From Pirellulaceae bacterium (lineage in GTDB: Bacteria; Planctomycetota; Planctomycetia; Pirellulales; Pirellulaceae), in contig BPJU01000002.1 of NCBI GenBank assembly GCA_026004775.1, positions 428,435 to 492,434 on the forward strand: a stretch of DNA of 64,000 nt, given 5' to 3'. Made by a program: the position numbers and the translations under genes. Positions within the stretch are counted from its first letter, which is position 1. Every line of letters begins with the position of its first letter. The notes under the pieces are model-generated. The model saw only the letters and a program-made list of their open reading frames with translations, searched no databases and was not told the DNA's origin. Shown here one piece after another: positions 2,066 to 47,059 of this stretch.

Positions 2066-3187
2066 TCAGCCGAAGGGCAAACCTTCCAGCACGAAATAGT
2101 GCGCCTCGGCCGGTACCCCGAGTGAGGCACTGTGCGGCACGTACATCGTCAGGGCAGCGCCGCGTTCAGCTTGCTCCGCCACCAGTTTGCCGCCGTGGGC
2201 TTCCATGATCCGCCGAGCAATCGCCAGTCCGAGGCCGGTGCCTTTGGATTTCGTGGTGAAGAACGGCTCAAAGACCTTGTCGAACTGAGCCGGATCGATC
2301 CCTGGTCCTTCATCCTGGATCGTCACCGCCCAAGCCGGCTGGCCGCCCACCTGCGCGTTGCGGCATTTGACGATAATACGCCCTTCAGTGGGACTGGCGT
2401 CGATGGCGTTCTCCAACAGGTTGCGCAACACCTGGCTCATTGCAAACGGATCGACATGGCACGAGCAGTGCTTCTCGTGTGAATATTCTTCCAGTCGTAA
2501 CTTTTTATCTTGGTGCCGGTACGACAATTCTTGCCAGACGTGCCGCCACAATTCGCGGAGGTTGCACTCCTGGCGCTCCAGCACGATCGGTGCCGCGTAG
2601 GCTCGCACTTGTTCGTGCAGACGCGTCAGTTCCAAGACGGCTTGTTCGATTTGGCCGCACAATTCCAGGGCGCCGGACCGGTCTGCGATTTCCAGCCTGA
2701 GCATTTCCACCGACGTCTGGATCCGCTGGAGTGCGTTCCGGCTTTCGTGCGCCAGTCCCGCGACGGTTTGCCCGATGGCGGCCAGGCGTTCGGATTGTAA
2801 GGCCCGGTCACGCGCATCGCGTAATTGCCGCAAACGCCGCAAACTGGCCCGCAAGGCTTCCGGGTTGATCGGTTTAAGAAGGTAGTCATAGGCACCGTAA
2901 CGCAGGGCGGTGATCGTGCTGTCCAGATCCGCGTACGCCGTGACGATCACGATGGCTGCCCGGGGCGCCATCCGCCGCAGCGTGCCTAACCATCGGTCGA
3001 CCAGATCGTCGGAAAGGCGGCGATCCAGTATCACCAGGTCGACCTGAGGCCAGATCTCCAGCGTTAAGGCTTCACGGATCGACCCGGTGCTCCAAACCGC
3101 ACAGCCCTCCAATTCCAGGATGTCTTGCAGGTTGGCTCGGGCGTCGGAGTCGTCCTCGACAATCACCACGCGCATTTCGTCTATCAT
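2066..3187 (-). CDS. Response regulator receiver fused to histidine kinase
   Basis: A 373-residue cytoplasmic signalling protein with an N-terminal receiver domain and a C-terminal kinase core. The receiver shows the acidic pair E11/D12, phosphoacceptor D55 (LVILDRRL), T83 and K105 (YLLKPIN). The kinase part has the phospho-His H147 (GLAHESRNALQRIQ), an N box (LLENAIDAS), a G1 box (DEGPGI) and FEPFFTTKSKGTGLGLA. The start is chosen at MIDEM because its ATG overlaps the TGA of the upstream kinase gene (ATGA), which implies translational coupling. No transmembrane segment or DNA-binding domain is present, so output must go through phosphotransfer to another protein. The receiver is presumably fed by the neighbouring globin-coupled kinase, and the fused kinase could relay or reverse the signal; this wiring is inferred from order only. 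Confidence 0.88.
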   Translation of the reverse strand: MIDEMRVVIVEDDSDARANLQDILELEGCAVWSTGSIREALTLEIWPQVDLVILDRRLSDDLVDRWLGTLRRMAPRAAIVIVTAYADLDSTITALRYGAYDYLLKPINPEALRASLRRLRQLRDARDRALQSERLAAIGQTVAGLAHESRNALQRIQTSVEMLRLEIADRSGALELCGQIEQAVLELTRLHEQVRAYAAPIVLERQECNLRELWRHVWQELSYRHQDKKLRLEEYSHEKHCSCHVDPFAMSQVLRNLLENAIDASPTEGRIIVKCRNAQVGGQPAWAVTIQDEGPGIDPAQFDKVFEPFFTTKSKGTGLGLAIARRIMEAHGGKLVAEQAERGAALTMYVPHSASLGVPAEAHYFVLEGLPFG

Positions 3188-4365
3188 GGGCTGCCCTCTT
3201 GTGTCGAACGAAAGCGGACTCGAGCGGTCGTCCCCTGCCCTACTTGGCTTTCCAGATCGAACGTGGCCCCATGCCGCTGGAGAATCATCCGCACCAGGGC
3301 CAGCCCCAACCCCATGCCGCGGGGTTTGGTGGTGAAGAGCGGGTCGCACGCTTTGGCCAGCACTTCCGGAGTCATGCCGCAGCCGTCGTCGCGTATTCGT
3401 AGCTCCACGCCCTCAGCAGACCGCTCCACCACGATCTCCACCGTTCCGTTTTCACCTATGGCGTCACGGGCATTGGCCAGCAGATTCCGCATCACCACGC
3501 CCAATTGCCGCTGGTCACCACTGACCGTTACCGGCTCATCCGGCAGTCGCAAATGGATCACCGTGCCTTTGCGCCATTGAATATCGCGGATCAGATCGCG
3601 AAGACACCGGCCCAGGTCGACCGGTTCGCACACAGGAAGGGGCAAACGCGCATAATCATTCAACGCCGCAATCACACGCTCCGCGTTCCGTACTTGTCGC
3701 TCGATCCGCTCCAAGTGATTGTTTCTTTTCTGGGGTGGGGCGTCACGAACCTGCTTCAGATAGTAAACCGACGTCTGGATGACGTTCAGCGGATTGCGCA
3801 GCTCGTGAGCGATCCCGCCCGCCACTTGTCCGATGGTCGCCAGACGTTCCATTTGTTGGAGCCGCCGGCGGTACTCGGTTTGATAGGCGTCGTCGATCAG
3901 AGCCAGCTCCAGGTCCAACGCCCGATCCAAAGCCGCCAGGGTTTCCATCAAATCGTGAGCGTTACCTTTCCAATCCGCAAGCAGTCGTGTTACCAGTCCA
4001 ATCCGCAGGCGGCTCATCGCCGCACTGACGTACTCGGCTTGCAACCCAATATCGACGTGCCGATAGCCTACAAACCAGCGCCGAGCCGCATAGGGGGCGT
4101 CGCGATCAGCCTGGAACAACTCGGCCAGCCAGGCAGCGAGCGTCAACTTGAGTCGAGCAATCTGTTGGCTGCCGCCGGTGATGATGCGAGCCGTTTCCGG
4201 CTCGCGCTGGATCGCGGCATAGAAATCTTCCACTAAGCTTGTCACGTGAGGCTCAACAAGAGGCCAAGCCGTGCGCAGCCGCGTCAAGTCGGCCGCCGTC
4301 CAGCCAACGTAGGTCTGGAGACGCTGGTACAGTCGGGCAATACGTTCCAGATCGGACTGGCTCAA
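3184..4365 (-). CDS. Globin-coupled sensor histidine kinase
   Basis: A soluble histidine kinase of about 393 residues with a protoglobin/globin-coupled sensor domain in front. Residues 10-165 carry the signatures of that fold, including VEDFYAAIQREPE, a conserved RLKLTLAAWLAELF helix and the proximal heme ligand H103 in GYRHVDIGL. The family binds heme and senses oxygen or related gases. The kinase core follows: H187 in GGIAHELRNPLNVIQTS, N box LLANARDAIG, RDDGCGM and TTKPRGMGLGL. The start is not certain. I prefer a TTG at 4365 because AAGGAG lies 8 bases upstream and it leaves a normal globin N-terminus; a GTG at 4374 is the alternative, and the frame stays open further upstream without homology. 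The gene is first in a two-gene unit with the receiver-kinase fusion downstream. Confidence 0.88.
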   Translation of the reverse strand: MSQSDLERIARLYQRLQTYVGWTAADLTRLRTAWPLVEPHVTSLVEDFYAAIQREPETARIITGGSQQIARLKLTLAAWLAELFQADRDAPYAARRWFVGYRHVDIGLQAEYVSAAMSRLRIGLVTRLLADWKGNAHDLMETLAALDRALDLELALIDDAYQTEYRRRLQQMERLATIGQVAGGIAHELRNPLNVIQTSVYYLKQVRDAPPQKRNNHLERIERQVRNAERVIAALNDYARLPLPVCEPVDLGRCLRDLIRDIQWRKGTVIHLRLPDEPVTVSGDQRQLGVVMRNLLANARDAIGENGTVEIVVERSAEGVELRIRDDGCGMTPEVLAKACDPLFTTKPRGMGLGLALVRMILQRHGATFDLESQVGQGTTARVRFRSTQEGSP

Positions 4366-4745
4366 ACCTTTCACTCCTTGGCGCTCGGCGCACACAGCCC
4401 CCCGACACACCACGTGCCAGGGGACCTGGAATGCCTCGTGAAACTTTACCTCTTTTAAAACTATGCTTTTCTCCAGCGACCCAGGCGCATTGTACCATCG
4501 CACTGGCCTCTTCCCAGGACCGACGCGGGCCAGCCGTCTGCGCCCGAACGCCCCGAGGCGGAAGTTGGCCGTCCGGTACGTGTCTGCCCGAGCCGGTACG
4601 GATCTGGTAGGATAGGGGCGCGCGGGGAACTGAGGCGAAACAGACCGGCGGTGCCTAACAAGCCTGCCTTCAAAAAAGTGCCGAAGCCCCAAGGTTGTTG
4701 GCCATACTGTGGCCGATGTTTGCATGATTGCTAGGGAGCACGGTG
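4366..4745. other. Divergent intergenic region
   Basis: About 380 bases between the divergently transcribed globin-coupled kinase and thioredoxin-like lipoprotein genes. It should hold both promoters. I see no convincing coding sequence, repeat or clear sigma-70 promoter pair in it; the part next to the kinase is locally AT-rich. Confidence 0.5.
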
Positions 4746-5450
4746 ATGACGGGAGTTTCGCTGAGCGGCGACAATGCTGAGTTTTTCCTGGCGGTACGCC
4801 GGCCGAATGGTTGGCTGATCGTGTCGATGTGCCTTGTCGCGGTATGGCTGAGTGGTCTTGTGGGTTGCGGCCGCCCGGCGGCCACCGGTGGCGGGGCGAA
4901 CTCCCAACCGGCCTCCGCGACGGCGGATCAGGCCACAACCGAAGGCGATTCGGCGGGAAACACCACGCCGGAACCGCAAACGGCCTATCATGAGCCGCGG
5001 GTGGCTCGGTGGCAGGAAATCGAACAGTGGATCGGCCAGCAAAAGGGCAAGCCGGTCATTGTGGATTTCTGGTCCACGACCTGCGGCCCCTGCCTGCGTG
5101 AATTGCCGCATCTGGTGAAGTTGAACGAGGAGCTTGCCGGCAAGGTAGTCTGCGCTACGGTGGATCTGGACTACTACGGCGATCCGGAAAGCCCGCCCGC
5201 TTCGTTGGTGCCTCAAGTCTCGCAAGTCTTGCAGCGCCTGGGAGCCCGAACGGAGAATTTCGTGTGTGCCGACGCCGACTCTGAGGTACTTGCCAAACTT
5301 CAAGCCGCCTCTATTCCCGTTGTTCTGGTATATGACGCGGACGGAAATCTTGCCAAGAAGTTTACCAATGACGCAAATGAATATGGCCAAGAAGGGTTCA
5401 CCTACGAAAAGCATATTATTCCGCTGGTGCGGAAACTGTTAGAGCCATAG
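4746..5450 (+). CDS. Thioredoxin-like (TlpA-type) lipoprotein
   Basis: A 234-residue envelope thiol-disulfide protein. The ATG at 4746 is preceded by AGGGAG at 7 bases. A hydrophobic segment ends in a lipobox (SGLVGC), so the protein should be lipid-anchored on the periplasmic side. A Pro/Ala/Thr-rich linker follows, then a thioredoxin fold with the active site WSTTCGPCLRELPHL and the cis-Pro strand (SIPVVLVYDADG). TlpA/ResA-type proteins reduce disulfides, often in apocytochrome c maturation. That would fit a genome region full of multiheme cytochromes, but the specific target here is inferred. It is the first plus-strand gene after a divergent promoter region. Confidence 0.88.
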   Translation: MTGVSLSGDNAEFFLAVRRPNGWLIVSMCLVAVWLSGLVGCGRPAATGGGANSQPASATADQATTEGDSAGNTTPEPQTAYHEPRVARWQEIEQWIGQQKGKPVIVDFWSTTCGPCLRELPHLVKLNEELAGKVVCATVDLDYYGDPESPPASLVPQVSQVLQRLGARTENFVCADADSEVLAKLQAASIPVVLVYDADGNLAKKFTNDANEYGQEGFTYEKHIIPLVRKLLEP

Positions 5451-5525
5451 AAGTCGCGGGTAGCCAGAATATTGCGCGTTCGTCGCAGGCCGGTTGTGAC
5501 CAGACGGCCCATGAGGGGACAAAAC

Positions 5526-6431
5526 GTGCGCTGGTTGATTACAGGTGCCAGTGGCCAATTGGGAAGTTATCTCCTGCGCGAACTTCGCCGTGCCGGCGTC
5601 GAAAGTGTTACGGCCTGGACGGGAAAGACCAGCGGACAATTGTTCGGCTACCAACTGCTTCCGGTACCACTGGACGAGCCGCAGGAGGTGGCACGTGTCT
5701 GGCGGGAAACCCGGCCAGAGGTGGTGATCCACGCCGCAGCGATAAGCCGGGTACAGAATTGTTATCAAGAGCCGCGCCGCGCCTTTCAAGTCAATGTATC
5801 GGCTTCGGGGCAATTGGCCCAACTGGCTGTCCAGCATGGGGCACGTTTCGTCTATGTATCGACCGACCTGGTCTTCGATGGGGACCGCGGAGACTATCGC
5901 GAAGACGACGTTCCCCGACCATTGTCCGTCTACGGCTCGACAAAACTGGCGGCCGAGCGCTGCGTGCGGCAGTATCCAACGACGCTGGTAGCGCGGGTAA
6001 GTCTCTTATTCGGCCCCAGTCTTCAGGGAAGAGAAACGTTGTTTGATCAACAGATGCGCAGTCTTCGGGCCGGACAGTCGATAGTGGTTTTTTCGGATGA
6101 ATTCCGAACACCGCTTTTTCTGGCTGATGCCGCGAAAGCTCTCATCCAATTGGCCCAGTCGGAGGCTACCGGGATATGGCATTTGGGCGGGCCGGAGCGG
6201 CTGTCGCGTGCCGAGATGGGAGCCGAATTGGCTCGATTTCTGGGAGCACCGATGGAATTGGTGCACGCCATTCGGTCCGAGGATTTGTTTCCAGAGCCGC
6301 GTCCGCGGGATGTCTCCCTGGACAGCCGTCGATTCGCAGAAGCGTTCCCCGAAGTGAAAATCACCTCGTTTTCCGAAGCCTTGCCCCAAGCCGTCGCTCT
6401 TTATCAAGAGATCGCATCGCAGCGCACGTGA
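5526..6431 (+). CDS. RmlD-like NAD(P)-dependent sugar reductase (extended SDR)
   Basis: A 301-residue Rossmann-fold protein resembling dTDP-4-dehydrorhamnose reductase. It opens with the nucleotide-binding motif VRWLITGASGQLG, has HAAAISRVQNC in the position of the family's HAAAYT motif, the catalytic Ser/Thr segment VYVSTDLVFDG and the YxxxK pair in SVYGSTKLAAE. The GTG at 5526 is chosen because GAGGGG lies 7 bases upstream and the motif then sits at the N-terminus; an ATG at 5511 is possible. It lies 75 bases after the lipoprotein gene on the same strand. The sugar substrate cannot be read from sequence; the C-terminal region is typical of RmlD-like reductases that lack a clear RmlABC context. 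Confidence 0.85.
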   Translation: MRWLITGASGQLGSYLLRELRRAGVESVTAWTGKTSGQLFGYQLLPVPLDEPQEVARVWRETRPEVVIHAAAISRVQNCYQEPRRAFQVNVSASGQLAQLAVQHGARFVYVSTDLVFDGDRGDYREDDVPRPLSVYGSTKLAAERCVRQYPTTLVARVSLLFGPSLQGRETLFDQQMRSLRAGQSIVVFSDEFRTPLFLADAAKALIQLAQSEATGIWHLGGPERLSRAEMGAELARFLGAPMELVHAIRSEDLFPEPRPRDVSLDSRRFAEAFPEVKITSFSEALPQAVALYQEIASQRT

Positions 6432-6536: not shown

Positions 6537-6562
6537 GAGCGCCGGCTGTTACACCGGCGCTC
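6537..6562 (-). terminator. Intrinsic terminator of the selenoprotein gene
   Basis: A perfect 9-bp stem (GAGCGCCGG / CCGGCGCTC) with an 8-base loop lies 45 bases after the minus-strand stop at 6607. Read on the minus strand it is followed by ATTTTTT, a normal rho-independent terminator. The hairpin also lies after the plus-strand gene ending at 6431, where no comparable T-run follows. Confidence 0.8.
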
Positions 6563-6606: not shown

Positions 6607-7167
6607 CTACTTGAGGATTTCTTTGGTACCTTCGACGATCTTCTTCACCACGTCAGCGTCCGCCAGCCCCTGGTCATCGACCGCCAGGTTGAAGCGGACG
6701 ACTTTGTTGCGATAGTGCATGACCGTCAAAGCCGCGTCGTCACTGACCTTGAACTGGTCGGCATCAGCCGTCACGGTTACCGCGATGTTCTTCAGGCCAG
6801 CTTTTTCGGCGAACTCTTTGATCTGCTTCATGTAATCGTCGGTCGGTTCGCCGGTGAAGTTCAGAACGGCCGCCATCTGCCGCGACGAGTTCTCACCGAC
6901 CACTTTGTCCAATTCCTTGACCACACGGGCCAAGGCGTCCGACGGAGCCTTCGCAAACAGGAAGGCTACCGGACGACCGCCGAGCCGTCACGTATAGCAG
7001 AGCGACGCGCCGACCGGCACCCCATCCTCGGCACCACCACATTTGGTGGTCGAGTAGGCACCGACCGATCCACCTACGGGTATACCACTCTTGACCTCTC
7101 CGGCGCTCACTACGTCGGCCAATACCATGGCCGCCAGCGCCGCACTGGCTACAAGCACACTTCTCAT
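6607..7167 (-). CDS. Secreted thioredoxin-like selenoprotein candidate (CxxU, in-frame TGA)
   Basis: An exported thioredoxin-fold protein of 186 residues if the TGA at 6990-6988 is read as selenocysteine. The ATG at 7167 follows AAGGAG at 5 bases and starts a clean signal peptide (MRSVLVASAALAAMVLADVV, cleavage near SAG). The frame is open on both sides of the TGA and the protein reads continuously: SLCYT-U-RLGGRPVAFLFAK, then thioredoxin-like helices and strands to ILK. The motif is C57-Y-T-U60; planctomycete relatives as I recall them have CxxC here. A strong hairpin follows the TGA (separate entry) and a terminator closes the unit. A nonsense mutation is the alternative but would not explain the exact CxxU position or the hairpin. 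The function is presumably periplasmic thiol or peroxide chemistry; the substrate is unknown. Automatic annotation would break this gene in two. Confidence 0.82.
6943..6971 (-). promoter_or_regulatory. SECIS-like hairpin after in-frame TGA
   Basis: Starting 16 bases after the TGA (6990-6988), the minus strand can form a 7-bp perfect stem AGCCUUC / GAAGGCU around the loop CUGUUUGC. Three more pairs below it (CGG / CCG) are separated by a bulged U. The apical loop starts about 27 bases after the TGA and contains GU. Bacterial SECIS elements recognised by SelB lie directly after the UGA, with an apical loop roughly 16-37 bases away that carries a G early in the loop, so the geometry fits. It lies inside the coding sequence, as expected for bacteria. 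Confidence 0.72.
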
Positions 7168-7303
7168 GCGCTCTCCTTTCCCAATTACGAAGACCCGAAC
7201 CAGGGCATATTGACAGCCCATCCCTTCCCGATTCTGTCCAACAGTATACCCTATTTGGGAACCCTATGCCAAGAGTTTATCGACAAAATAATTCTTTTGA
7301 AGG

Positions 7304-8428
7304 CTATCCGCGATCGGCTTCCAATTGGATCGGCACCTTCAGTTGCTCGCCTCCACGCACAATCGTTAATTCCACGGTTTGTCCCACGCGGTACTTTTCC
7401 AACAGGTCCAGCAACTCACGCGGCGACCGAACCGCCTCGCCATTGACCGCCACGATCCGGTCGCCCAGCACGATCCGACCGCCGCGCGTCCGCCGTGTGG
7501 GCTGGAGGCCCGCTTGCTCAGCCGATGAACCGGGACGGACATCCAATACGAGCACCCCTTCTAACCCCAGGGCTTGCATGACGCGATCCGAAGCCGCCGT
7601 GATGGCGATCGTGGGGCGGATGATCCGCCCGTATTGGATCAATTGTGGGACCACCCAATTGACAGTATCAACCGGGATTGCAAAACCGATGCCGGCAAAC
7701 GCCCCGGACGGGCTCAAAATGGAAGTGTTCACGCCGATCAAACGACCGGCACTGTCCAGCAGCGGACCTCCGGAGTTGCCCGGGTTGATCGCCGCATCGG
7801 TCTGGATGACGTCTTTGATCTGGCGATTGGTCATCGATGTGATTTCGCGCCCCAGGGCGCTGATCACACCGGTCGTCAATGACTGGTCCAGGCCGAACGG
7901 GTTGCCGATGGCAAACACTTTCTGGCCCACTTGAAGGTCATGAGAAGTGCCGACCGGAATCGGTTGCAGCACGTCCTGCGGCGCTTCGATTTTCAGTACG
8001 GCCAGATCTTTGTCCGGCGCGACACCGACCAGGCGAGCCGGCCAGGTCGAGCTGTCAAAGAGCGTTACTTGGGCCGCCCCGGCATCGGAAATCACGTGGA
8101 AATTCGTGACGATGTGGCCCTGCTTATCCCATACAAACCCGGATCCGGTTCCCTGAGGGATTTCCAAAACGTTCAGCGTGAAGATATCCGTGACTCGAGC
8201 GACCGACGTGATGTGCACCACGCTGGGCGAGGCGCTGCGAAAAAGCGCGATCGTTGCCTTTTCGTCCTGGTCAAGATCGCCGCGAGGTGTCACGGCCCGC
8301 GGCGAAGCCTCGCCGCCTTGAATCCCCAAACGCCCGGTCGGGATCTGCCCCAAGTACCGCCCCAGCAAGAAAGCCAGTGCAATAAGAAGCAGGAAAATGT
8401 AACTTTTCTGAGAACGTAGCTGGCTCAT
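7304..8428 (-). CDS. HtrA/DegP-type trypsin-like serine protease with PDZ domain
   Basis: A 374-residue membrane-anchored S1C protease. One N-terminal hydrophobic helix (YIFLLLIALAFLLG) places the rest in the periplasm. The catalytic triad is visible as H111 (TNFHVISD), D141 (PDKDLAVLKI) and S219 (NPGNSGGPL). A single PDZ domain follows from about residue 275, with GLEGVLVLDVRPGSSAEQAGL and the GDRIVAVNG turn. The ATG at 8428 is preferred because GGGAG then sits 9 bases upstream; an ATG two codons earlier is only 3 bases from it. DegS/DegP-like proteins degrade or sense misfolded envelope proteins. It stands between the thioredoxin-like selenoprotein and the cytochrome cluster, consistent with envelope protein quality control. 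Confidence 0.93.
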   Translation of the reverse strand: MSQLRSQKSYIFLLLIALAFLLGRYLGQIPTGRLGIQGGEASPRAVTPRGDLDQDEKATIALFRSASPSVVHITSVARVTDIFTLNVLEIPQGTGSGFVWDKQGHIVTNFHVISDAGAAQVTLFDSSTWPARLVGVAPDKDLAVLKIEAPQDVLQPIPVGTSHDLQVGQKVFAIGNPFGLDQSLTTGVISALGREITSMTNRQIKDVIQTDAAINPGNSGGPLLDSAGRLIGVNTSILSPSGAFAGIGFAIPVDTVNWVVPQLIQYGRIIRPTIAITAASDRVMQALGLEGVLVLDVRPGSSAEQAGLQPTRRTRGGRIVLGDRIVAVNGEAVRSPRELLDLLEKYRVGQTVELTIVRGGEQLKVPIQLEADRG

Positions 8429-8521
8429 ACGCATCGGCTCCCTGGTCCGAACAATCAGCCCGTCACGGTGCAGTGGCTGTTTCGAGGCACCTTCCCTGCC
8501 ATGCGATCGTTCATGGCTTTT

Positions 8522-10009
8522 TCAGTATGTGTTGCCCGAGGCCAGTTGCTTAATACGTTCGTAGGAGCGTCCATGGTACTGATGGCAGTCGACGCACCGT
8601 GTGGGTGCCGAGCCACTCGAGGCCCTGCTTCCACTCGATACGTGACACCGCAAACATACTTCCCGCGACGGCAGCAAAAGGTCGGCCGTATCCTCCGATT
8701 CAGTGGCGCCCGGCCCTTCCTGCCCGTCATAATGGCAATCCACACAGCGAACGAACTGATGGCTCTGGTGCGAAAAACGCGCCATCGGCATCCACCGCGC
8801 CGGCATCCGCGGCTCGGTTACCTGCCAGCCGATCGAGCCTCGATCCTGTTGGGGCATAACTTCGTGGCAATAACCGCATCCGGTCTTGAGCTGCCGGTGC
8901 TCGGCCCCCGGTTCCCCCGCGTAAAGTACCGACGGTGACACAACCGCACCGCTCAACTCCTGCCACCGCCGCTCGACCCACTGCCAGGCGCGGGCCTGGC
9001 GAAGCTCGGGGGTTTCTTCTCCGGTCGGCGTCAGTGGCTGTGGGCCGGGCAACACAGACCGGTCCACAGCCTCCGAATCGACCTCTTGCGGATGCCTTTG
9101 CAAGTAGCGCATGAGTCGATCGCGAAGCACCCCCAAAGCTAACTGGATGTCTCCGTGCGGCAGCGGCCCGTCTTCGGCCAGAGCGAAACGGAACTCCAGC
9201 CGGTGGCACGGCTGGCAATGCTGCTCGAAACGAATCGGTTGCATCGCCCGCCCATCCACCATCGGCTGGTGGCAGTCCTGACACTCCAGCCGCTTCAGGT
9301 GATGGTTGCCCTGATAGTCGGGATGATCCGGGGGAATCGGGATTCCGTCGGGATCCAGGTGAACACGATGGTTGAAGCGAAGCGCCGTTCGGTCACGCCA
9401 GCGTTGCCGTCGTTCGTCGTACTGAGCCAGTTCGTCGAGCAGACCAGCAGTCGCGGCCGAATCTTTGGGGCGCTTGCCGGCGAATTCCGGGTGTTTCTGC
9501 CAGGAGACGACTTGGGAGCGAACATGGGGAGTTTGGTCACTGCGGCACGCGAGGACCAGATCGGCGTGGCACGCCACACACGCCGTGTCGGCCACCTCGC
9601 GCACCGATCGGCCTCGATGCTCCTGATGGCATTCCATACAACTGGCCGGTCCGCCGTGGGCCAGCATCTGTGGATGGTGGTCATCGCACCGCTGCTCGTG
9701 GCAAGCCTGGCAGGCTTGGTCGCTTACCGAATGGGCCCCTGCAACTCCCGCCAGGCGTAGCAGAGGCTGGCCGTGCCGGTCGTGGCACCGGCGGCAATCG
9801 GCTTCGAACAGCCGATGGGGGGCGCTCAGCGGCCGGGCCATGAAGGGGCGGTGGTCCCCAGTAACCAGCGGGTAGGAGACGAACAGTAATCCGGCCAGCG
9901 CCGCACACCAGCCGGCACGCCCGCGCCACCGCCGCCACCGATTCGGATACCGCCGCCAATCCAAGTCGTACCGTTCGGCGATGGCCGGAATCTGACGGGC
10001 ATCGGTCAT
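8522..10009 (-). CDS. Membrane-anchored decaheme c-type cytochrome
   Basis: A 495-residue multiheme cytochrome. After a short cytosolic, basic N-terminus there is one transmembrane segment (GWCAALAGLLFVSYPLV); the rest should be periplasmic. Ten CxxCH motifs can be counted: CRRCH, CQACH, CMECH, CVACH, CQDCH, CQPCH, CGYCH, CVDCH, CLRCH and CVDCH, with extra His residues available as distal ligands. The start is the ATG at 10009, where a GAGGCG motif and the membrane helix make sense; the frame stays open upstream but without homology. The gene begins 35 bases after the membrane protein gene at 10045, in the same direction. The layout suggests it takes electrons from that membrane protein or from quinol and passes them to periplasmic cytochromes; this role is inferred. 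Confidence 0.85.
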   Translation of the reverse strand: MTDARQIPAIAERYDLDWRRYPNRWRRWRGRAGWCAALAGLLFVSYPLVTGDHRPFMARPLSAPHRLFEADCRRCHDRHGQPLLRLAGVAGAHSVSDQACQACHEQRCDDHHPQMLAHGGPASCMECHQEHRGRSVREVADTACVACHADLVLACRSDQTPHVRSQVVSWQKHPEFAGKRPKDSAATAGLLDELAQYDERRQRWRDRTALRFNHRVHLDPDGIPIPPDHPDYQGNHHLKRLECQDCHQPMVDGRAMQPIRFEQHCQPCHRLEFRFALAEDGPLPHGDIQLALGVLRDRLMRYLQRHPQEVDSEAVDRSVLPGPQPLTPTGEETPELRQARAWQWVERRWQELSGAVVSPSVLYAGEPGAEHRQLKTGCGYCHEVMPQQDRGSIGWQVTEPRMPARWMPMARFSHQSHQFVRCVDCHYDGQEGPGATESEDTADLLLPSREVCLRCHVSSGSRASSGSAPTRCVDCHQYHGRSYERIKQLASGNTY

Positions 10010-10044
10010 CGGTTCGCCTCTTACTCCCACAAAACGCTCTTGCT

Positions 10045-10899
10045 TCAATACCAGACAGAAGCCACGGCGTGCGCGGCGGCCAACACCAGCAACAACACCG
10101 ACACCGGTACGTGCAACAGCAGCCAGCCATGCAGCCAGCCATGGATCGTCGATTGCCATTGAAGCTGCTGGCGCTCCGAGACGATATCCAGAAGCTGGTC
10201 GACCACCGGCTGGAGGTCGTCCGGCATGGCGTGTTTGACTTCCAGGAGCTTCAGCCGCAGTTGCCCGTAGTGGCCCGCGCCCCGGTCCGACCAACGTAAC
10301 CGGCCTCGCACTTCGTGCAAATAGAACTCTACCAAAGCCCGTTCCGGCTGATAGGAAGCGGCGTCTTTGGGCTCGTGCCATTCCGGCACGGCAAGCGTGC
10401 CGCAGCGGGCGGCCACCAAAGCGTCGGCTTTCTTGCACAGAGCCTCACAGGCCGCCGGAATCTGTTCGTAAATGGCCTGAGCCGGCACGACGTTCGACAG
10501 CACCCGCGGCAGGAATTGTTGGAGGGCAAGCCCCACGATGCCGCTTATATACACGACGAAAAACACCGCCAGCGTCGCTTGTTCCAGCATCCCGCCCCAA
10601 CGAAAACCGCAATGGAAAAGTATGAGCGGCCCGCTCAACAGCCCCAACCAGATATGCCCAGCCATCCAGGTGCGAGCCGATCCGAGCCAAGTCCAGCGGG
10701 GCAAGCGTTTTTTCCATGAGAATGCCCCAGCATACAGCATCAGGGCACTGCCGAGCAGCCCGAAGGTGAGCCCCACGGGACTGCCCCCCAGCACGCCATC
10801 GGGTGAACGATAGGCGGCCACACCGTAAATAACACTGGCTATGCCCAGTGCCACAAGTGTCGCCAGCCCCCAACCGAAATGCGATCGATCAACTAACAC
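10045..10899 (-). CDS. Multi-pass membrane protein, possible b-type cytochrome of the multiheme cluster
   Basis: A 284-residue membrane protein with about five hydrophobic helices: three near the N-terminus, one around residue 120 and one at the C-terminus. His residues sit inside or at the ends of helices in patterns seen for heme b ligands: GHIWLGLLSGPLILFH and, near the end, IHGWLHGWLLLH followed by AAAHAVA. A roughly 100-residue soluble segment lies between helices four and five. The start is a GTG at 10899, with no strong ribosome site. It is sandwiched between cytochrome genes (33 bases after one, 35 before the next), so it is probably the inner-membrane electron-entry subunit. I do not recognise a named family, and heme binding is a prediction from the His pattern. 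Confidence 0.75.
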   Translation of the reverse strand: MLVDRSHFGWGLATLVALGIASVIYGVAAYRSPDGVLGGSPVGLTFGLLGSALMLYAGAFSWKKRLPRWTWLGSARTWMAGHIWLGLLSGPLILFHCGFRWGGMLEQATLAVFFVVYISGIVGLALQQFLPRVLSNVVPAQAIYEQIPAACEALCKKADALVAARCGTLAVPEWHEPKDAASYQPERALVEFYLHEVRGRLRWSDRGAGHYGQLRLKLLEVKHAMPDDLQPVVDQLLDIVSERQQLQWQSTIHGWLHGWLLLHVPVSVLLLVLAAAHAVASVWY

Positions 10900-10932: not shown

Positions 10933-12561
10933 TCACCGAGACGTTCCAGCCGATGGGCTGCCGCCCAGCATCTCGCGCAATTGGCCGACACTCTGCCGAA
11001 GCCGTTGCGGATCGAATCGAGCACTTACCTCCAGCAATTCGGCCAGCCGCTCGGTCAACTCGACCTTCTGGCCTGCGGGAAGTACCAGAGCCAGTTGCCT
11101 GTCGAGTTCCGCCCGGCCCAATGTCGCCTGCCGCGCGGCTTGCCGTGACGCCGTTGCTTGCTGGTGGTACTCTTGCCACAAAGACAGGTCCGCCGAAACG
11201 CGCTCCTGTAACGCCTCAGCTTCCGCCGGCAACGGATCCGGATTCCGGAACGCCTCAGGATACCGCACCGCCTGCTCGCCCACCAGCGCCCAAATGGTCC
11301 AGCCCAGGAGCCGAGCCGAGGCGTAGTCTTGGGCGTCGTGCAGGGAATCGACCAGCCGTGCCAGTAGTTGCTCGGACAATAGAGAATCGGCTCCGGCCGA
11401 CTGGCACAGGGGCAGCAGGTGTTTTTCCAGCCAATCGGCGATTTCGGAGGAAGCTGTGGCCACACCGGCTGGATCACCCAACGGCCGCCCGGTGAACGCT
11501 TCCAGACGCTTGCGCTTCATAGCCTCCCATTGTTCCAGCAACATGTCGCGCTGGCCGGCCTCCTTGGCCACCACCTCGATAACCGCTGGCACAACGGCCA
11601 GATACGAATCGGCGGGCACAGGACGTCCCGGGACGTAGCCTTGGTAGCCCCGCTGCTGCCTCCAGGACGGATACCGCAATTCATGATGACAGGCAGCGCA
11701 GTCGAATAGCACCAGATCCAATCCGCCGTCGGTTTGCTCGGCCAGCTTGCTCTCCAGGCGCAGGGCAGATATCGCCGCCATCAGGTCGCCCAACAACACT
11801 TCTCGCAGCACCGGCAACTGCTGTCGGGCTGCGGATGCCTGCGGACCAAAGTTGACTTCCAAGAACTTGGCTTCGTTCTGAAGAGCGCCTTTTTCACACA
11901 GATACCGCCAGTGGCGCGGCATCTGTTCGGCGAACGCCGCCGCCTCGAACGGCGGCAGCGGCGGATGGCCCGCCGCATACATTTCGTGGGTTACCACCTT
12001 GCCCTGTTGGGCATCACCGACGTGGCATGAGGCACATTGCCGTACGCGTTCGATCGGATTGCGCACGTCGACCATGCCCAACGCAGCTTTTTCGGCAGGG
12101 CTCTTGGTGCGCCAATCGGGACGCTGATGGAGCAATTCGTACAGCGAACCCGGCCCGTGACATGCTTCACAGCCGACCCCCTCCTGCACCACCTGCCCGA
12201 AGTTTTCCACGGGTGCCACATCAGCCCGCAGATTCGCATGGCATGAAAGACACCGCTGGTCCTCGGTCACCTTCCAGCCCAGCCGCCGGCCGATGGCCTG
12301 TCCCAGTGGCCCTTCCAGAACCTTGTAGGCCAGTGCATGCTTGTCCAAGTCGCGGAGGATCGTTCCTTCGTTCAATAGTATCAGATCGCGATGAAAAGGC
12401 CGCACGTCGTCCTCCAAGCGGCGGCTGTGACAAAAGGTGCACGTCGCCCCACCCTTGAAAAGCGGAGTAGCCTGAGCCATCGCTTCAGAAGCTGTAATGG
12501 CCCACAGGACAGGCAGCCATCCGAAACGCCACGCCAACCGGCTGATCGGTCTGCCGCTCAT
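10933..12561 (-). CDS. Pentaheme cytochrome c554-like protein
   Basis: A 542-residue exported cytochrome. The signal peptide ends at SEAMAQA, and five CxxCH motifs follow: CTFCH (C41), CLSCH, CEACH, CASCH and CAACHH. The EGVGCEACHGPGS and CASCHVGDAQQGKVVTHEMYAAGHPP segments match the cytochrome c554 family layout, including the free HEMYAAGHP histidines used as distal ligands. After the fifth heme (about residue 300) a long helical tail without heme motifs extends to the end. Its ATG overlaps the stop of the upstream paralogue (ATGA), so the two are probably co-translated. Relatives transfer electrons in the periplasm; no catalytic motif for hydroxylamine or nitrite chemistry is evident. Confidence 0.85.
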   Translation of the reverse strand: MSGRPISRLAWRFGWLPVLWAITASEAMAQATPLFKGGATCTFCHSRRLEDDVRPFHRDLILLNEGTILRDLDKHALAYKVLEGPLGQAIGRRLGWKVTEDQRCLSCHANLRADVAPVENFGQVVQEGVGCEACHGPGSLYELLHQRPDWRTKSPAEKAALGMVDVRNPIERVRQCASCHVGDAQQGKVVTHEMYAAGHPPLPPFEAAAFAEQMPRHWRYLCEKGALQNEAKFLEVNFGPQASAARQQLPVLREVLLGDLMAAISALRLESKLAEQTDGGLDLVLFDCAACHHELRYPSWRQQRGYQGYVPGRPVPADSYLAVVPAVIEVVAKEAGQRDMLLEQWEAMKRKRLEAFTGRPLGDPAGVATASSEIADWLEKHLLPLCQSAGADSLLSEQLLARLVDSLHDAQDYASARLLGWTIWALVGEQAVRYPEAFRNPDPLPAEAEALQERVSADLSLWQEYHQQATASRQAARQATLGRAELDRQLALVLPAGQKVELTERLAELLEVSARFDPQRLRQSVGQLREMLGGSPSAGTSR

Positions 12562-42439: not shown

Positions 42440-43075
42440 TCAGCTACCCCCGGATTGTTGTTTCCCTAGCTGGTTCGGTTCCGGCAATATCGGGCCCTCG
42501 GCCGGGCCAGACGGTAACGGGTGCTCGAAATAGCTCGGATCCTCCAGCCCAAACGCGTCGGCTACTCGATTAAAAAACGCAAACAATGCCGTGATGTATA
42601 CCGCCTCGGCAATTTGCGCTTCTTCCCAGCCGGCCTGGCGCAGGCGATCCACATCCGCGGCCGTAGTGCGGTACGAATGCAAAGTCAGCAAGCGTACAAA
42701 TTCCAGCAACGCGCGCTCCTTAGGCGCAACGTCTGCCCGATCCAAATCGCCGGCTGCCAGAGCTTCCACCACCGATCTGTCGGCTCCCTGCAACTGCAGG
42801 AAATAACCGTGTGAGCCCACTCAGTACGGACACCGGTTCAATCCGGAAACATACGTGGCAATCATCTCTTTGATACGCCGCGACAGATGCCCTTCTGAGA
42901 AGTGGAGCCGATACGAAAAATCCAGCACACTTCGCAAAAAATCCGCGCGCCAACTAAAACATTTGAGAATCTCCGGCACTTTGTCTCGATGAGGGTTTGC
43001 CGCCCTCCAAAGCTGATACAATTCAGCAACCTCGCCCGTCGCTTCTGTCTCTTCAACCCACTTGATAAAGGGCAT
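42440..43075 (-). CDS. AhpD-like peroxidase-related selenoprotein candidate (CxxU, in-frame TGA)
   Basis: A 211-residue cytosolic protein of the carboxymuconolactone decarboxylase/AhpD peroxidase-related family if TGA 42823-42821 is selenocysteine. The N-terminal part has the family features MPFIKWVEETEATGEVAELY and HLSRRIKEMIATYVSGLN. The active site then reads C82-P-Y-U85-V-G-S-H89, exactly the AhpD CxxCxxxH motif with the second Cys replaced by TGA. The frame runs on for 126 codons with normal helices (ADVAPKERALLEFVRLL, AGWEEAQIAEAVYITAL). A two-part hairpin with an AGUU loop follows the TGA. GGGG lies 8 bases before the ATG at 43075. AhpD proteins reduce peroxiredoxins or peroxides with the CxxC pair; Sec would make it more reactive. 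AhpD-like selenoproteins are known in other bacteria. Confidence 0.87.
42782..42817 (-). promoter_or_regulatory. SECIS-like hairpin after in-frame TGA (AhpD-like)
   Basis: Four bases after the TGA the minus strand forms a lower stem GGCUC / GAGCC and, across a 12-base 5'-side bulge, an upper stem CCUGC / GCAGG closed by the apical loop AGUU. The loop starts about 26 bases after the TGA and carries a GU, as in bacterial SECIS elements. All ten pairs are Watson-Crick. Confidence 0.78.
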
Positions 43076-43360: not shown

Positions 43361-46300
43361 TCAATCGGAAGCGTTTGCATGTTGTATCCACCGCCAGAAC
43401 CATGCCGGATTTTGACGCCTTGTTTGATAATTTCTGAGGTACTCCAGATACTCTGGTGACTGGGGGGCCGACCGTGGATCATAGGGGTACTCCGTCATCC
43501 CACGATAAGGCAGCGGCTCGACGCTCTGTCCCCAGATCGTATTCAAATCCGCGTCCTTATCCCATCCGACACAGTGCAACAGGAAGTCACGTTTCCAGCC
43601 CGGCCGAGGGCCAGGTGGCACAGAGAACTTAACGGCCAGTTCGTCACCGGAACCCATGACGACCAGCCGATCGTCCTGATCGGTCACCAGGCTGGTCACC
43701 TCTCCGTAACGCGTGAAGTATCCTCGCATAACCGGCCACCGCGGCGCAGGATCGACTCGTTCATAGACGTACCACTCGGGCTTATAGTCATGATACGGAA
43801 TGCGCTCTGAAAAGCCTCGGAACCTCAGGGCCGCCTCGCTGGCTGCAACGCGCCGTACCTCGACAGGAGCCGGCTCTTCATCCACAGTAAAAAATATCTC
43901 GTCCCAGTAGATCTCCGCCGACGACACGATGCGCAGCCGGTAGTCACCTGGCGTGAAAATGTTCGATACATCGACGACGATCGTTTTGGGTTTGCCGCCG
44001 GGGAAACCCATGAACGGGACCACTTCTTGCCAATTGCCTTGAGCGTCGGGGGCCCAGATGGCCGGGTATTTGGGGCCATCCAGGTCTGGATGGTTGGTGA
44101 AAGATACGTTCAGCGATGTATTGGTAGGGTAGATCCAGCCGGTCAAAAAAAGAAGGATTTTCCGGGGGCGGGGCAGATCTCCCAAATCCAATTCTACATA
44201 GTGGCGCTCGGTCAGACCCTGGCGGATTCGTGTTTGCCAGGCGGCCAGGTAGCGTTCGTCCCGAGCTTCGATCCAGGGCAACACATCGCGGCCCAGGTGG
44301 TCCCGAGCTGCGCGAGGCAGCCGCCGCCGGTGCACCGTATGCACCGCAAATGCCGCAATCTCGGGAGGCCCAACCTTCTCGTTGGAGTAGATTTCGATCT
44401 CGGCCGGATGATCGACCGTTAATAACTCGACCTTGTCAATGTACGCCGCCTCCCACAACTCCTCGGTAATCCGCAACTCGTAGTGGCCATCGCGTGGCCG
44501 CAACAGATCACCCGGAATCTTCACATATTCCCACGGCCGACTGGGCGCTAGGCGCCCGCGAGCCGACTGAAGCCCAAGCGGTGCCGCCCATAACAAGTCC
44601 GTAACGAACACGAACCTTTCCCCGTCCCAGGCATACAGATACGGACACGACCCTTTCAGTGTCATCACTTCGGTAACATATTGGTTAGCCGAAGGCCGAA
44701 GAATCGTCTGGGGCACACCATTGGTCCACACGATACGAGCCACATCGGCCTGGTTGGCCGCACCCAGCCCAAAGTGCGTGGTATCGGATTCGACGGTCTG
44801 AGCCTGGTAGTGGTGGCCCGTGCGCAGCTCGATCAAGCTTCCAATCCCGGTATGACCGGAACACCCCTTGTTGTCGCATTGGCCCACCAGGCGAAACTGA
44901 ATCCAGTGGTTTTGATTGCCGCCGTCGTTGCGACTCCAGAAAACGCGCCCGTTTTCCGTCCACACCAGATCCAGGTCCCCGTCGCGGTCGATGTCATAAG
45001 ACCGAACACGTTCCGGGTGGATATTTTCGGGCAACACCTGCCAATGTTCCCATCGCTTTGCCGGTGCCCCGCGGAAGGCTTGCCAACCGTTCGGCCCCCA
45101 TGCCACCAGGTCCGGGAACCCGCTGTTGTCCAGGTCGGCGGCTAAGAGTCGCTCATACGCACCTTGAGCAACCTCTTGTTGACTGGTAAATCGCACTTGG
45201 CCGTGCAAGTCAGTGGTCGTCCAGAGAACCACCAGTTGTTGGCCGGTAGCGACGGCCAGATCCCATGAGCCGTTGCCGTCGAAGTCCCCTACGACAAGAT
45301 CGCGAACCGCCACGGGCGACGGCGGCGCCAACGCTCGCCATGCCAGGTGACCATGAAGCAGGTTTTCCAGCAACGCCGGGCCGGCAAACCGATCAGCGCA
45401 CAGCAGATCCACGTCCGCATCGCGTTCCCAGTCCACCGCCACCAGACGCTGCACTTCGGCCTGTTGCGGCAACAGCGAGAAGCTCGAAAGGTCTTCGAAC
45501 GTTCCGTTACCTCGGCCCGACCAGCAACCGACCTGGGAAGGGGTGCTCCATACCAGGTCCAGGTCGGCATCATGGTCGAAGTCCACCAGCACTGCCGCTA
45601 TGACGTTTTGTGGCACGTGCTCGATATCGGGCTGCGAGAGCGGCACGAGCTGGCGCCCCTGGGGAGACGCTCGGTTTTCCAGCACGACTATACCCGATTG
45701 TCCGTAAACGACCAGGTCCAAGTCTGCTTGGTGCCATTTGGAGTCGGCGGCCGCGTCGCCGGTGGGGCTGTTCGTCGCTGGTTGTCGCGTTGCCAAATGG
45801 TCGTTGTCCAGGTCGCCGGCCAGAATGCCTCGCATTCCACCGGACAACTCGATGGAAGCGATCACCGAGCCGGGCAATCCGTTCGCCTGGCTGCGATAAA
45901 CTTCTACACCATCATCGAAGAGCACAATCCAGTCTGGCTGGCGATCCAGGTCAAAGTCAGCCACGATCAGATCGACCACACGACGGCCATCGGTTTTTTG
46001 GGCTGGCGACACTTCTTCCGGCGGCGCGTATGTCAACCGGATTTGCACGTCGGTTGGGGGCGGGAGGCCTTGATAGAAAGCGTCGCTGAAATCGTGCACC
46101 ACAAGGGCCAACGGGTGAGGCAGGACGCGTGCCGTATCATTGCGGTGCACGATCAAGGGGCCGATGCCGTTCTTGATTTGGCGGGCCAATACCAGCACCT
46201 GCGGCCACTGTTGTTGCTCGGCCGCGCGGATCGCCTCATCGATCATCTCCAGCACATTTCGGCCAAGGCTGCTTACTGCGTCGTCTCGGCCCAGATTATC

Positions 46301-47059
46301 GCCCCCTAAAATACTCCGCCACAACGGTCCGATCGTTTGCCGCGCTTGGCGCAGCGTCTGGATAATCTCTGGATCCCGCTGTTCAGCCTGTACCGGCAGC
46401 CACTCGGCCAGCACATGCAAGTTGTCCGAGGCCAAGCGATAGGCAGCGCCCAGTGCCTGGTAGGCTCGCTGAAGGTTGTCCGGTGCCGGGGACGCCAAGA
46501 GCGTTTCGTAAATCGCCATCGGATAAACGGCATTCTCCGGATCACGTTTTTGTGCTTCTTCCAGCAATTCGACGATTCTCGCTGCCCGCTGCGACTCATC
46601 GACCCCCGCCAACCGGCCCATAAATTGCGCGGCGATCCAATAGGCTTCCGCCGACGGGAATCGTTCCAACAACTGCTCGATCGCCTGCTGTGCCGACTGC
46701 CGGAGTTGGGGGCTGCCCGGCTCGTCATTGCGGATCGCCAACAACCGAGCGATCGCCTGGTTCTGCCACCCTAACCTCTCTTCCGGAAGTTTCTCGCACA
46801 CCGTGGCGAAGGTGGCCGCCGCCTTATCCAAGTCCGACTCGTTTTCAAGACGCCCTATCGCTTCCCACGTCTGCTGGAGAAGCTGCATTTTTTCGGCGTA
46901 GCCCAATGGTGGCCGCTGCGGTTGCAAAGCGGGTGGCTTGCGCCGGACGTAAACGACCGCGACTACCAACAGCAAGGCCGCACACCCAAGCAGCACGATC
47001 CACCACCATCCCCTTTTCCATGCGCGTGATCTGTGTCGGCCTTCCGGTACCGCGGACAT
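43361..47059 (-). CDS. Large membrane-anchored TPR/FG-GAP/ASPIC-UnbV protein
   Basis: A 1232-residue protein with one N-terminal transmembrane helix (WWIVLLGCAALLLVVAVVYV) and an extracytoplasmic rest. Residues 45-320 are helical repeats of TPR type. Residues 355-700 contain FG-GAP/VCBS blades (VADFDLDRQPDWIV, DFDHDADLDLVWS, DFDGNGSWDLAVA, DLDNSGFPDLVAWG, DIDRDGDLDLVWT). An ASPIC/UnbV domain follows (HWIQFRLVGQCDNKGCSGHT, DTTHFGLGAANQADVARIVW). The last 400 residues form a further domain (SCPYLYAWDGERFVFVTDL) ending in a Trp/Arg-rich tail. CRTAC1-like proteins of this type are common in planctomycetes. The ligand is unknown. It is divergent from the DUF1549 gene at 47324. Confidence 0.9.
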   Translation of the reverse strand: MSAVPEGRHRSRAWKRGWWWIVLLGCAALLLVVAVVYVRRKPPALQPQRPPLGYAEKMQLLQQTWEAIGRLENESDLDKAAATFATVCEKLPEERLGWQNQAIARLLAIRNDEPGSPQLRQSAQQAIEQLLERFPSAEAYWIAAQFMGRLAGVDESQRAARIVELLEEAQKRDPENAVYPMAIYETLLASPAPDNLQRAYQALGAAYRLASDNLHVLAEWLPVQAEQRDPEIIQTLRQARQTIGPLWRSILGGDNLGRDDAVSSLGRNVLEMIDEAIRAAEQQQWPQVLVLARQIKNGIGPLIVHRNDTARVLPHPLALVVHDFSDAFYQGLPPPTDVQIRLTYAPPEEVSPAQKTDGRRVVDLIVADFDLDRQPDWIVLFDDGVEVYRSQANGLPGSVIASIELSGGMRGILAGDLDNDHLATRQPATNSPTGDAAADSKWHQADLDLVVYGQSGIVVLENRASPQGRQLVPLSQPDIEHVPQNVIAAVLVDFDHDADLDLVWSTPSQVGCWSGRGNGTFEDLSSFSLLPQQAEVQRLVAVDWERDADVDLLCADRFAGPALLENLLHGHLAWRALAPPSPVAVRDLVVGDFDGNGSWDLAVATGQQLVVLWTTTDLHGQVRFTSQQEVAQGAYERLLAADLDNSGFPDLVAWGPNGWQAFRGAPAKRWEHWQVLPENIHPERVRSYDIDRDGDLDLVWTENGRVFWSRNDGGNQNHWIQFRLVGQCDNKGCSGHTGIGSLIELRTGHHYQAQTVESDTTHFGLGAANQADVARIVWTNGVPQTILRPSANQYVTEVMTLKGSCPYLYAWDGERFVFVTDLLWAAPLGLQSARGRLAPSRPWEYVKIPGDLLRPRDGHYELRITEELWEAAYIDKVELLTVDHPAEIEIYSNEKVGPPEIAAFAVHTVHRRRLPRAARDHLGRDVLPWIEARDERYLAAWQTRIRQGLTERHYVELDLGDLPRPRKILLFLTGWIYPTNTSLNVSFTNHPDLDGPKYPAIWAPDAQGNWQEVVPFMGFPGGKPKTIVVDVSNIFTPGDYRLRIVSSAEIYWDEIFFTVDEEPAPVEVRRVAASEAALRFRGFSERIPYHDYKPEWYVYERVDPAPRWPVMRGYFTRYGEVTSLVTDQDDRLVVMGSGDELAVKFSVPPGPRPGWKRDFLLHCVGWDKDADLNTIWGQSVEPLPYRGMTEYPYDPRSAPQSPEYLEYLRNYQTRRQNPAWFWRWIQHANASD

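Follow-up and report, generated by a model that had tools for sequence, protein, structure and literature searches.

A putative exported thioredoxin-fold selenoprotein with a CxxU motif in Pirellulaceae and its selenocysteine and cysteine relatives across Planctomycetota

A reading frame on the minus strand of a Pirellulaceae genome is crossed by an in-frame TGA, and whether this codon ends the protein, specifies an ordinary amino acid or inserts selenocysteine (Sec) is the question raised by the locus. The window analysed here is a 64,000-nucleotide stretch of contig BPJU01000002.1, in which the frame occupies 6607-7167(-). That the frame is open across TGA 6990-6988, as the original prediction had proposed, is confirmed: it runs for 186 codons to a TAG and contains just one TGA in frame, yielding C57-Y-T-U60 in the context CYT-TGA-RLGGRP. 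The upstream ribosome-binding site, signal peptide and downstream terminator described along with it have candidates in a Shine-Dalgarno-like AAAGGAG, a hydrophobic leader read as ending in VSA, and a terminator-like hairpin at 6562-6537. The gene and its local signals are as follows.

6607..7167 (-): coding sequence (186 codons, then TAG) of a putative exported selenoprotein of thioredoxin fold with Sec as residue 60, from the open frame, homologues and purifying selection
6988..6990 (-): in-frame TGA, the proposed Sec codon (codon 60), the only in-frame TGA, aligning with TGA, TGC or TGT in homologues
6988..6999 (-): CYTU redox motif C57-Y58-T59-U60, three of whose positions (C57, Y58, C/U60) do not vary in the 40 rows of alignment A1 (TGA read as C)
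7102..7167 (-): putative N-terminal signal peptide, MRSVLVASAALAAMVLADVVSA, from sequence reading, low pLDDT at residues 1-20 and homologues with hydrophobic leaders
7173..7179 (-): Shine-Dalgarno-like AAAGGAG before the ATG, from sequence reading
7243..7272 (-): promoter-like TTGGCA-18-TATACT, from a consensus scan with one hit where 0.2 would be expected
6537..6562 (-): intrinsic terminator-like hairpin, 10 pairs followed by ATTTTTTG, from a consensus scan with two hits where 0.8 would be expected

Relatives were examined for the residue at position 60. Family matches occur in 118 of 196 related genomes, amounting to at least 150 matches. Of the 90 homologues examined, 45 have TGA at position 60 and the other 45 have a Cys codon (TGC or TGT), a 45:45 ratio set by the sampling, which took all 45 with TGA among the matches listed and 45 of the 105 others; all 90 were confirmed as family members by phmmer. 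A motif pattern finds 88 of them, with TGA in 43, TGC in 40 and TGT in 5, and the two outside the pattern, L058 (CYRU) and L077 (RYYU), are also TGA, L077 being the one homologue of the 90 without the first Cys. For the 45 TGA-keeping homologues in the matches listed, identity goes down to about 30%. The claim that the TGA stands where relatives have the second Cys of CxxC is borne out by all 45 sampled non-TGA matches, and in the homologue alignment the TGA column is Cys in these relatives (45 + 45 of 90). A random residue at this position, named at the outset as the outcome that would speak against Sec, was not encountered in the 90 homologues; the exception is L230 (G456:C96:6059-6532) of the phylum sample, which reads CYAS and lacks the second redox residue.

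The family extends beyond these genomes. A first contig scan with the single protein P0001 as query found no relative; a later scan gave 72 loci, of which 70 have the motif pattern, as 63 Cys and 7 TGA forms, a 63:7 proportion that is no frequency since the scan patterns favoured Cys forms. The two loci outside the pattern are L181 (CLYC) and L182 (CLFC). The 72 loci are labelled as planctomycetes, many of them Pirellulales/Planctomycetaceae, two Gemmata/Gemmataceae and some Candidatus Kuenenia, with one labelled only 'bacterium'. In a phylum-wide profile search, 36 of 294 genomes match, and nine loci outside the order carry ten TGA genes with CYVU, CYIU or CPVU, a count that excludes further TGA matches in G445 and G342 and a second in G339.

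Additional copies are found within single genomes. The host genome holds a second, distant family homologue without TGA (L235, C28:12450-12932, E 3.5e-11) in a 342-aa frame. Two distinct Sec copies occur in G005 (L059, L070) and in G070 (L063, L068, L069), both of genus g6; the third G070 copy is identical, lies on another contig of a bin with 8% contamination, and is perhaps an assembly duplicate.

Downstream of the TGA, dN/dS (NG86) is roughly 0.03-0.26 in six homologue pairs, one of which (L073/L074) has saturated dS (2.4); in the example pair L061/L062, dN is 0.010 and dS 0.345. Two more distant pairs have dN/dS of about 0.23 and 0.38 at dS 0.9-1.2. Evolution past the TGA is purifying, and the region after it is therefore most simply read as translated. 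Additionally, the exchange between Sec and Cys requires five changes on the tree, at least three of them forced by well-supported branches; this was a quick tree with position 60 masked, built from 87 of 88 rows, with L067 (short frame, internal TAG) left out.

All four genes sought for Sec decoding, selA, selB, selD and tRNA-Sec, are present in the host genome (6.14 Mb, 99.9% complete). The tRNA-Sec scores 72.6 bits and has the anticodon TCA. SelB lies at C5:196130-198022 (367.9 bits joined), directly followed by SelA at C5:198114-199475 (571.3 bits), and SelD lies at C2:496883-497797 (279.6 bits), 4.4 kb beyond the right end of the window. The SelD match (L108) sits in a 751-aa open frame, against 311 positions of the SelD model, and this frame may be a fusion, for example of the Ndh-SelD type described in PMC2398784.

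Across genomes, TGA forms accompany this machinery. Where a TGA form is present (39 genomes), tRNA-Sec occurs in 37, SelA over the cut-off in 36 and at least one of these in 38; where there is a family match but no TGA form is listed (79 genomes, 40 of them with Cys confirmed; G010 and G073 without a listed match), tRNA-Sec occurs in 16, tRNA-Sec or SelA in 22, and neither in 57. The association of tRNA-Sec with the TGA form has a Fisher p of 1.2e-15, calculated with the relatedness of the genomes ignored and from a tRNA-Sec search with strict filters (E up to 1e-9), by which weak tRNAs may be missed. G005 and G148 carry SelB. G002 has a TGA form and tRNA-Sec with no SelA over the cut-off; its SelA gap is probably one of assembly, because the contig ends about 2 kb short of the selA position in the syntenic sister G068. 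G101 (91% complete) has a TGA form with no tRNA-Sec, SelA or SelB over the cut-off and is the sole TGA genome with neither tRNA-Sec nor SelA.

Two other readings of codon 60 are weighed against this evidence. TGA ordinarily terminates in the host, ending 14 of 31 long ORFs picked from the ORF list of the window, and the codon could by that standard be a true stop, leaving a decaying relic or a 59-residue product. This is very improbable, since 45 homologues, with identities reaching as low as about 30%, retain this TGA, dN/dS past it is well below 1, and a promoter-like site, a ribosome-binding site and a terminator-like site are all present. The pseudogene reading was rejected on these grounds, in agreement with the earlier judgement that gene decay is unlikely. 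Alternatively, the codon could be read as another amino acid (Trp, Cys or Gly) through a reassigned code or plain suppression, with which the Cys at position 60 of the sampled non-TGA homologues would be compatible. TGA ends other window genes, however, four of the 14 ORFs having Pfam domains (3184-4938, 8522-10438, 10933-12561 and 43361-47059), so TGA is not reassigned in the host. Given also the canonical tRNA-Sec with SelA, SelB and SelD in the genome and the way in which TGA forms track the Sec machinery, insertion of another amino acid is scarcely credible; code reassignment was rejected, and the recoding of TGA that had been named as a possible refutation did not hold.

The RNA after the UGA can form the following hairpin.

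6937..6974 (-): SECIS-like hairpin with a 6-bp lower stem and an 8-bp upper stem with one bulge, from the minimum-energy fold and a class-level excess

The 7-bp perfect stem that had been placed sixteen bases past the TGA exists, as AGCCUUC/GAAGGCU, but begins 20 nt after the UGA (at the 21st nucleotide) and continues into the lower 6-bp stem. In the minimum-energy fold the apical loop is UGUUU at 6955-6959, its first nucleotide 29 nt after the UGA. The 54-nt minimum free energy (MFE) of this gene is -24.0 kcal/mol (z -1.54), with 17 of 200 dinucleotide shuffles folding as well, and z is -1.30 in the synonymous-shuffle test; taken alone, its hairpin is only mildly unusual.

RNAalifold on the SECIS region (A4, 43 rows) predicted no pair and no consensus structure. 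The hairpin seems to be held in position, not in sequence register, and the synonymous-shuffle test was used for this reason. Over the 51 nt after codon 60, mean z is -1.75 in 43 Sec genes vs -0.40 in 45 Cys genes (difference p 2.5e-8), the Cys genes themselves not being signal-free (Wilcoxon p 0.02); related genes are not independent, and these p-values are therefore optimistic. Pairs spanning nt 29/34, a centre window picked after seeing the 51-nt folds and controlled by Cys genes and synonymous shuffles, number 12.1 observed vs 7.2 in the null for Sec genes and 7.5 vs 6.6 for Cys genes, with at least 8 such pairs in 41 of 43 Sec genes vs 27 of 45 Cys genes. The enclosing-pair profile of Sec genes peaks about 32 nt after the UGA, that of Cys genes being flat and lower.

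The bSECIS rule quoted in PMC13188914 specifies a G in the first two nucleotides of a 3-9 nt apical loop, an upper stem of 4-16 bp, a spacing of 16-37 nt and an MFE of at most -7.5. The hairpin of this gene conforms to it, as do 15 of the 43 Sec genes, where the synonymous null gives 20.5, vs 31 of the 45 Cys genes, where it gives 26.0. The published loop rule fails to tell Sec forms from Cys forms and, if anything, points in the wrong direction. The excess in Sec forms, together with the failure of this rule, indicates that the hairpin is a class feature of Sec forms whose recognition details may differ from the published model.

With the frame, machinery, Sec/Cys exchange, downstream selection, hairpin excess, fold prediction and gene linkage all computed, we consider it very probable that 6607-7167(-) encodes a true selenoprotein, with predicted export, a predicted ResA/TlpA/peroxiredoxin-type thioredoxin fold, putative redox chemistry at C57-U60 and, in the nearest clade, a candidate TlpA-like partner. 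SelB with Sec-tRNA(UCA) would decode UGA codon 60, aided by the hairpin centred about 32 nt downstream, and Sec would enter the second position of the CxxC-type motif (C57-Y-T-U60). The signal peptide would export the chain, which outside the cytoplasm would take the thioredoxin fold, with C57 and U60 forming a reversible selenenylsulfide that acts on its substrate by thiol- or peroxide-type redox chemistry. The redox motif would lie before the central strand, with the usual CxxC site vacant, and members of the nearest clade would have their likely redox partner in a TlpA-like lipoprotein with CxPC whose gene lies nearby.

Family identity was sought in sequence and in predicted structure. With E allowed up to 1, P0001 has no match in Pfam or NCBIfam 20.0. 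For 40 family members against Pfam and NCBIfam, the lowest E is about 0.005, with scattered unrelated families, none matched by more than four members; the redox-related weak matches among them are the deiodinase family NF038285 (best E 0.041, two members) and Redoxin (E 0.086, one member). PDB sequence searches with the protein and with alignment A1 gave chance-level matches only (best E 0.14 and 0.49). AlphaFold with 37 alignment rows predicts a thioredoxin fold with pLDDT 91.5 and pTM 0.85. Compared with ResA/TlpA/DsbE structures, the top rows reach Z 16.6-17.0 with rmsd 2.0-2.2 over 131-137 residues (4nmu_D, Z 17.0; 3gl3_A, Z 17.0, rmsd 2.0 over 137). The protein resembles these in its predicted fold, its putative signal peptide and its two-residue redox motif, but differs in having no convincing PDB sequence match and in having Sec at the second motif position. 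Foldseek ranks the core of mouse iodothyronine deiodinase Dio2 third among its matches (E 4.1e-7, TMq 0.61); however, the sequence match to deiodinase/NF038285 is at chance level, and the protein described here is a small bacterial one with a putative signal peptide. The deiodinase motif is also a different one.

The location of the motif within the fold distinguishes the family further. AlphaFold places C57-U60 ahead of strand 67-72, and this strand runs into helix 77-92. Chain 2h1b_A 38-174 (137 residues, 133 aligned) maps to model residues 31-186. This leaves no more than four chain residues without a counterpart; the earliest model residue to which ResA C74 could correspond, provided that it is aligned, is 63, and CxxU is thus not at the ResA CxxC position (C74/C77, numbered from structure entry titles), an argument that combines a predicted model with a sequential alignment. 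Judged by secondary structure, the site equivalent to the ResA CxxC falls at about residues 73-77, where A1 shows no conserved Cys. In the predicted structure, the ResA CxxC position is vacant; ResA/TlpA proteins have their CxxC at the end of the central strand, whereas CxxU/C of this family is modelled before it and would lie towards the opposite end of the sheet. A1 has no conserved Pro before the invariant T148, a residue that may correspond to the one next to the cis-Pro that faces the active site in ResA/TlpA proteins (hhalign prob 1%). Description of the protein as thioredoxin-like accordingly holds for the predicted fold and not for the active site, CxxU being placed away from the usual thioredoxin position.

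A gene in the neighbourhood encodes a potential partner.

4728..5450 (+): gene for a TlpA-like lipoprotein that has CGPC and probably starts at the ATG at 4743, with Pfam Thioredoxin, Redoxin and AhpC-TSA over the cut-off

In the window this gene lies 1.2 kb from the selenoprotein gene, on the opposite strand and beyond ORF 5472-6431(+). A TlpA-like gene is near the selenoprotein gene in all eight nearest-clade genomes (own, G021, G080, G043, G103, G009, G001 and G072; L018-L025), downstream on the same strand in seven of them; the ninth CYTU member (G126, L192) is without such a neighbour. L201 and L203 have a TlpA-like gene about 2 kb downstream, and the neighbour occurs at 10 of 22 loci searched, the weak L205 match not counted. 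Seven TlpA-like copies were scanned: four exceed a Pfam cut-off of thioredoxin or redoxin type, the remaining three match beneath it, and all seven have a lipobox-like Cys and a CxPC motif. Profile-profile comparison of the family with its TlpA-like neighbours gave no support (prob 1%). In relatives, terminator-like hairpins seem, by eye, to separate the two genes, and the linkage therefore does not imply that they are co-transcribed. From the gene linkage, the TlpA-like lipoprotein is a plausible redox partner in the nearest clade. The HtrA-like gene (trypsin + PDZ) at 7304-8434(-), directly upstream, was considered as an operon partner and set aside, as it is not among the listed neighbour clusters of at least three loci, a listing that shows 12 members for each of the two largest clusters, which are the family and its antisense frames.

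A wider proposal would be that these proteins form a phylum-wide set of exported selenoenzymes whose thioredoxin fold has lost the usual active site and gained a new CxxU/CxxC centre, on the segment ahead of the central strand and close to the opposite sheet end, with a TlpA-like lipoprotein dedicated to servicing them in at least one clade; this we advance tentatively, at somewhat below even chances. A variant of the selenoprotein reading, compatible with Sec insertion, concerns the chemistry: Sec could act as the peroxidatic and C57 as the resolving residue in an exported peroxidase. The predicted fold also matches the peroxiredoxins Bcp, Tpx and AhpE at Z 15-16.6, and Sec peroxiredoxins likewise have Sec second in their motif (TxxU, PMC13188914 Table 1). 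Peroxiredoxins differ, however, in that none of the 40 members has a convincing AhpC-TSA or Redoxin Pfam match (Redoxin E 0.086 in one), and in that the motif appears, from model and alignment, to lie off the canonical site of their fold. The peroxidase variant is a real contender, though we lean slightly away from it.

Selenoproteins have been reported in two planctomycetes, P1 and P2 (PMC4807772). The family was recognised in no entry of Table 1 as given in the available part of PMC13188914, and the literature search identified no description of it, within the available parts of PMC4807772, PMC13188914, PMC12013277, PMC2398784, PMC1794560 and PMC9312934 among others; the S9 candidate table of PMC4807772 was outside this scope and may hold a member. 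This is very probably an undescribed exported planctomycete selenoprotein family, without a Pfam or NCBIfam model and with a variant placement of the redox motif. If so, it would add a selenoprotein family with Sec and Cys forms across Planctomycetota, whose Sec members would be truncated by gene callers reading TGA as stop, and would place selenium chemistry in an exported planctomycete protein. It would likewise offer many natural Sec/Cys exchanges for comparison, a SECIS set departing from the published G-in-loop rule and, through a redox motif placed away from where thioredoxins normally have theirs, an example of the fold being put to a distinct use.

The window contains one further gene with an in-frame TGA.

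42440..43075 (-): second TGA gene, AhpD-like and peroxidase-related, with CPYU and Sec codon 85 (42821-42823), from TIGR01926 (111.7 bits vs cut-off 81.8) and Pfam CMD

Its real stop is also TGA. The second such gene announced 36 kb away is real as a TGA gene but belongs to a known AhpD-like family (TIGR01926) and is not a paralogue. It shares with 6607-7167(-) the CxxU motif with Sec second and the genome, but the family (CMD) is unrelated and already known, AhpD-like CxxU proteins being a listed selenoprotein family (PMC13188914 Table 1).

Other genes of the window encode haem-related proteins. Multihaem cytochrome c genes lie near the selenoprotein gene, at 8522-10438(-) and 10933-12561(-), with Cytochrome_C7, doubled CXXCH and Cytochrome_C554, and 3184-4938(-) encodes a protoglobin-histidine kinase fusion that is likely a haem-based gas or redox sensor.
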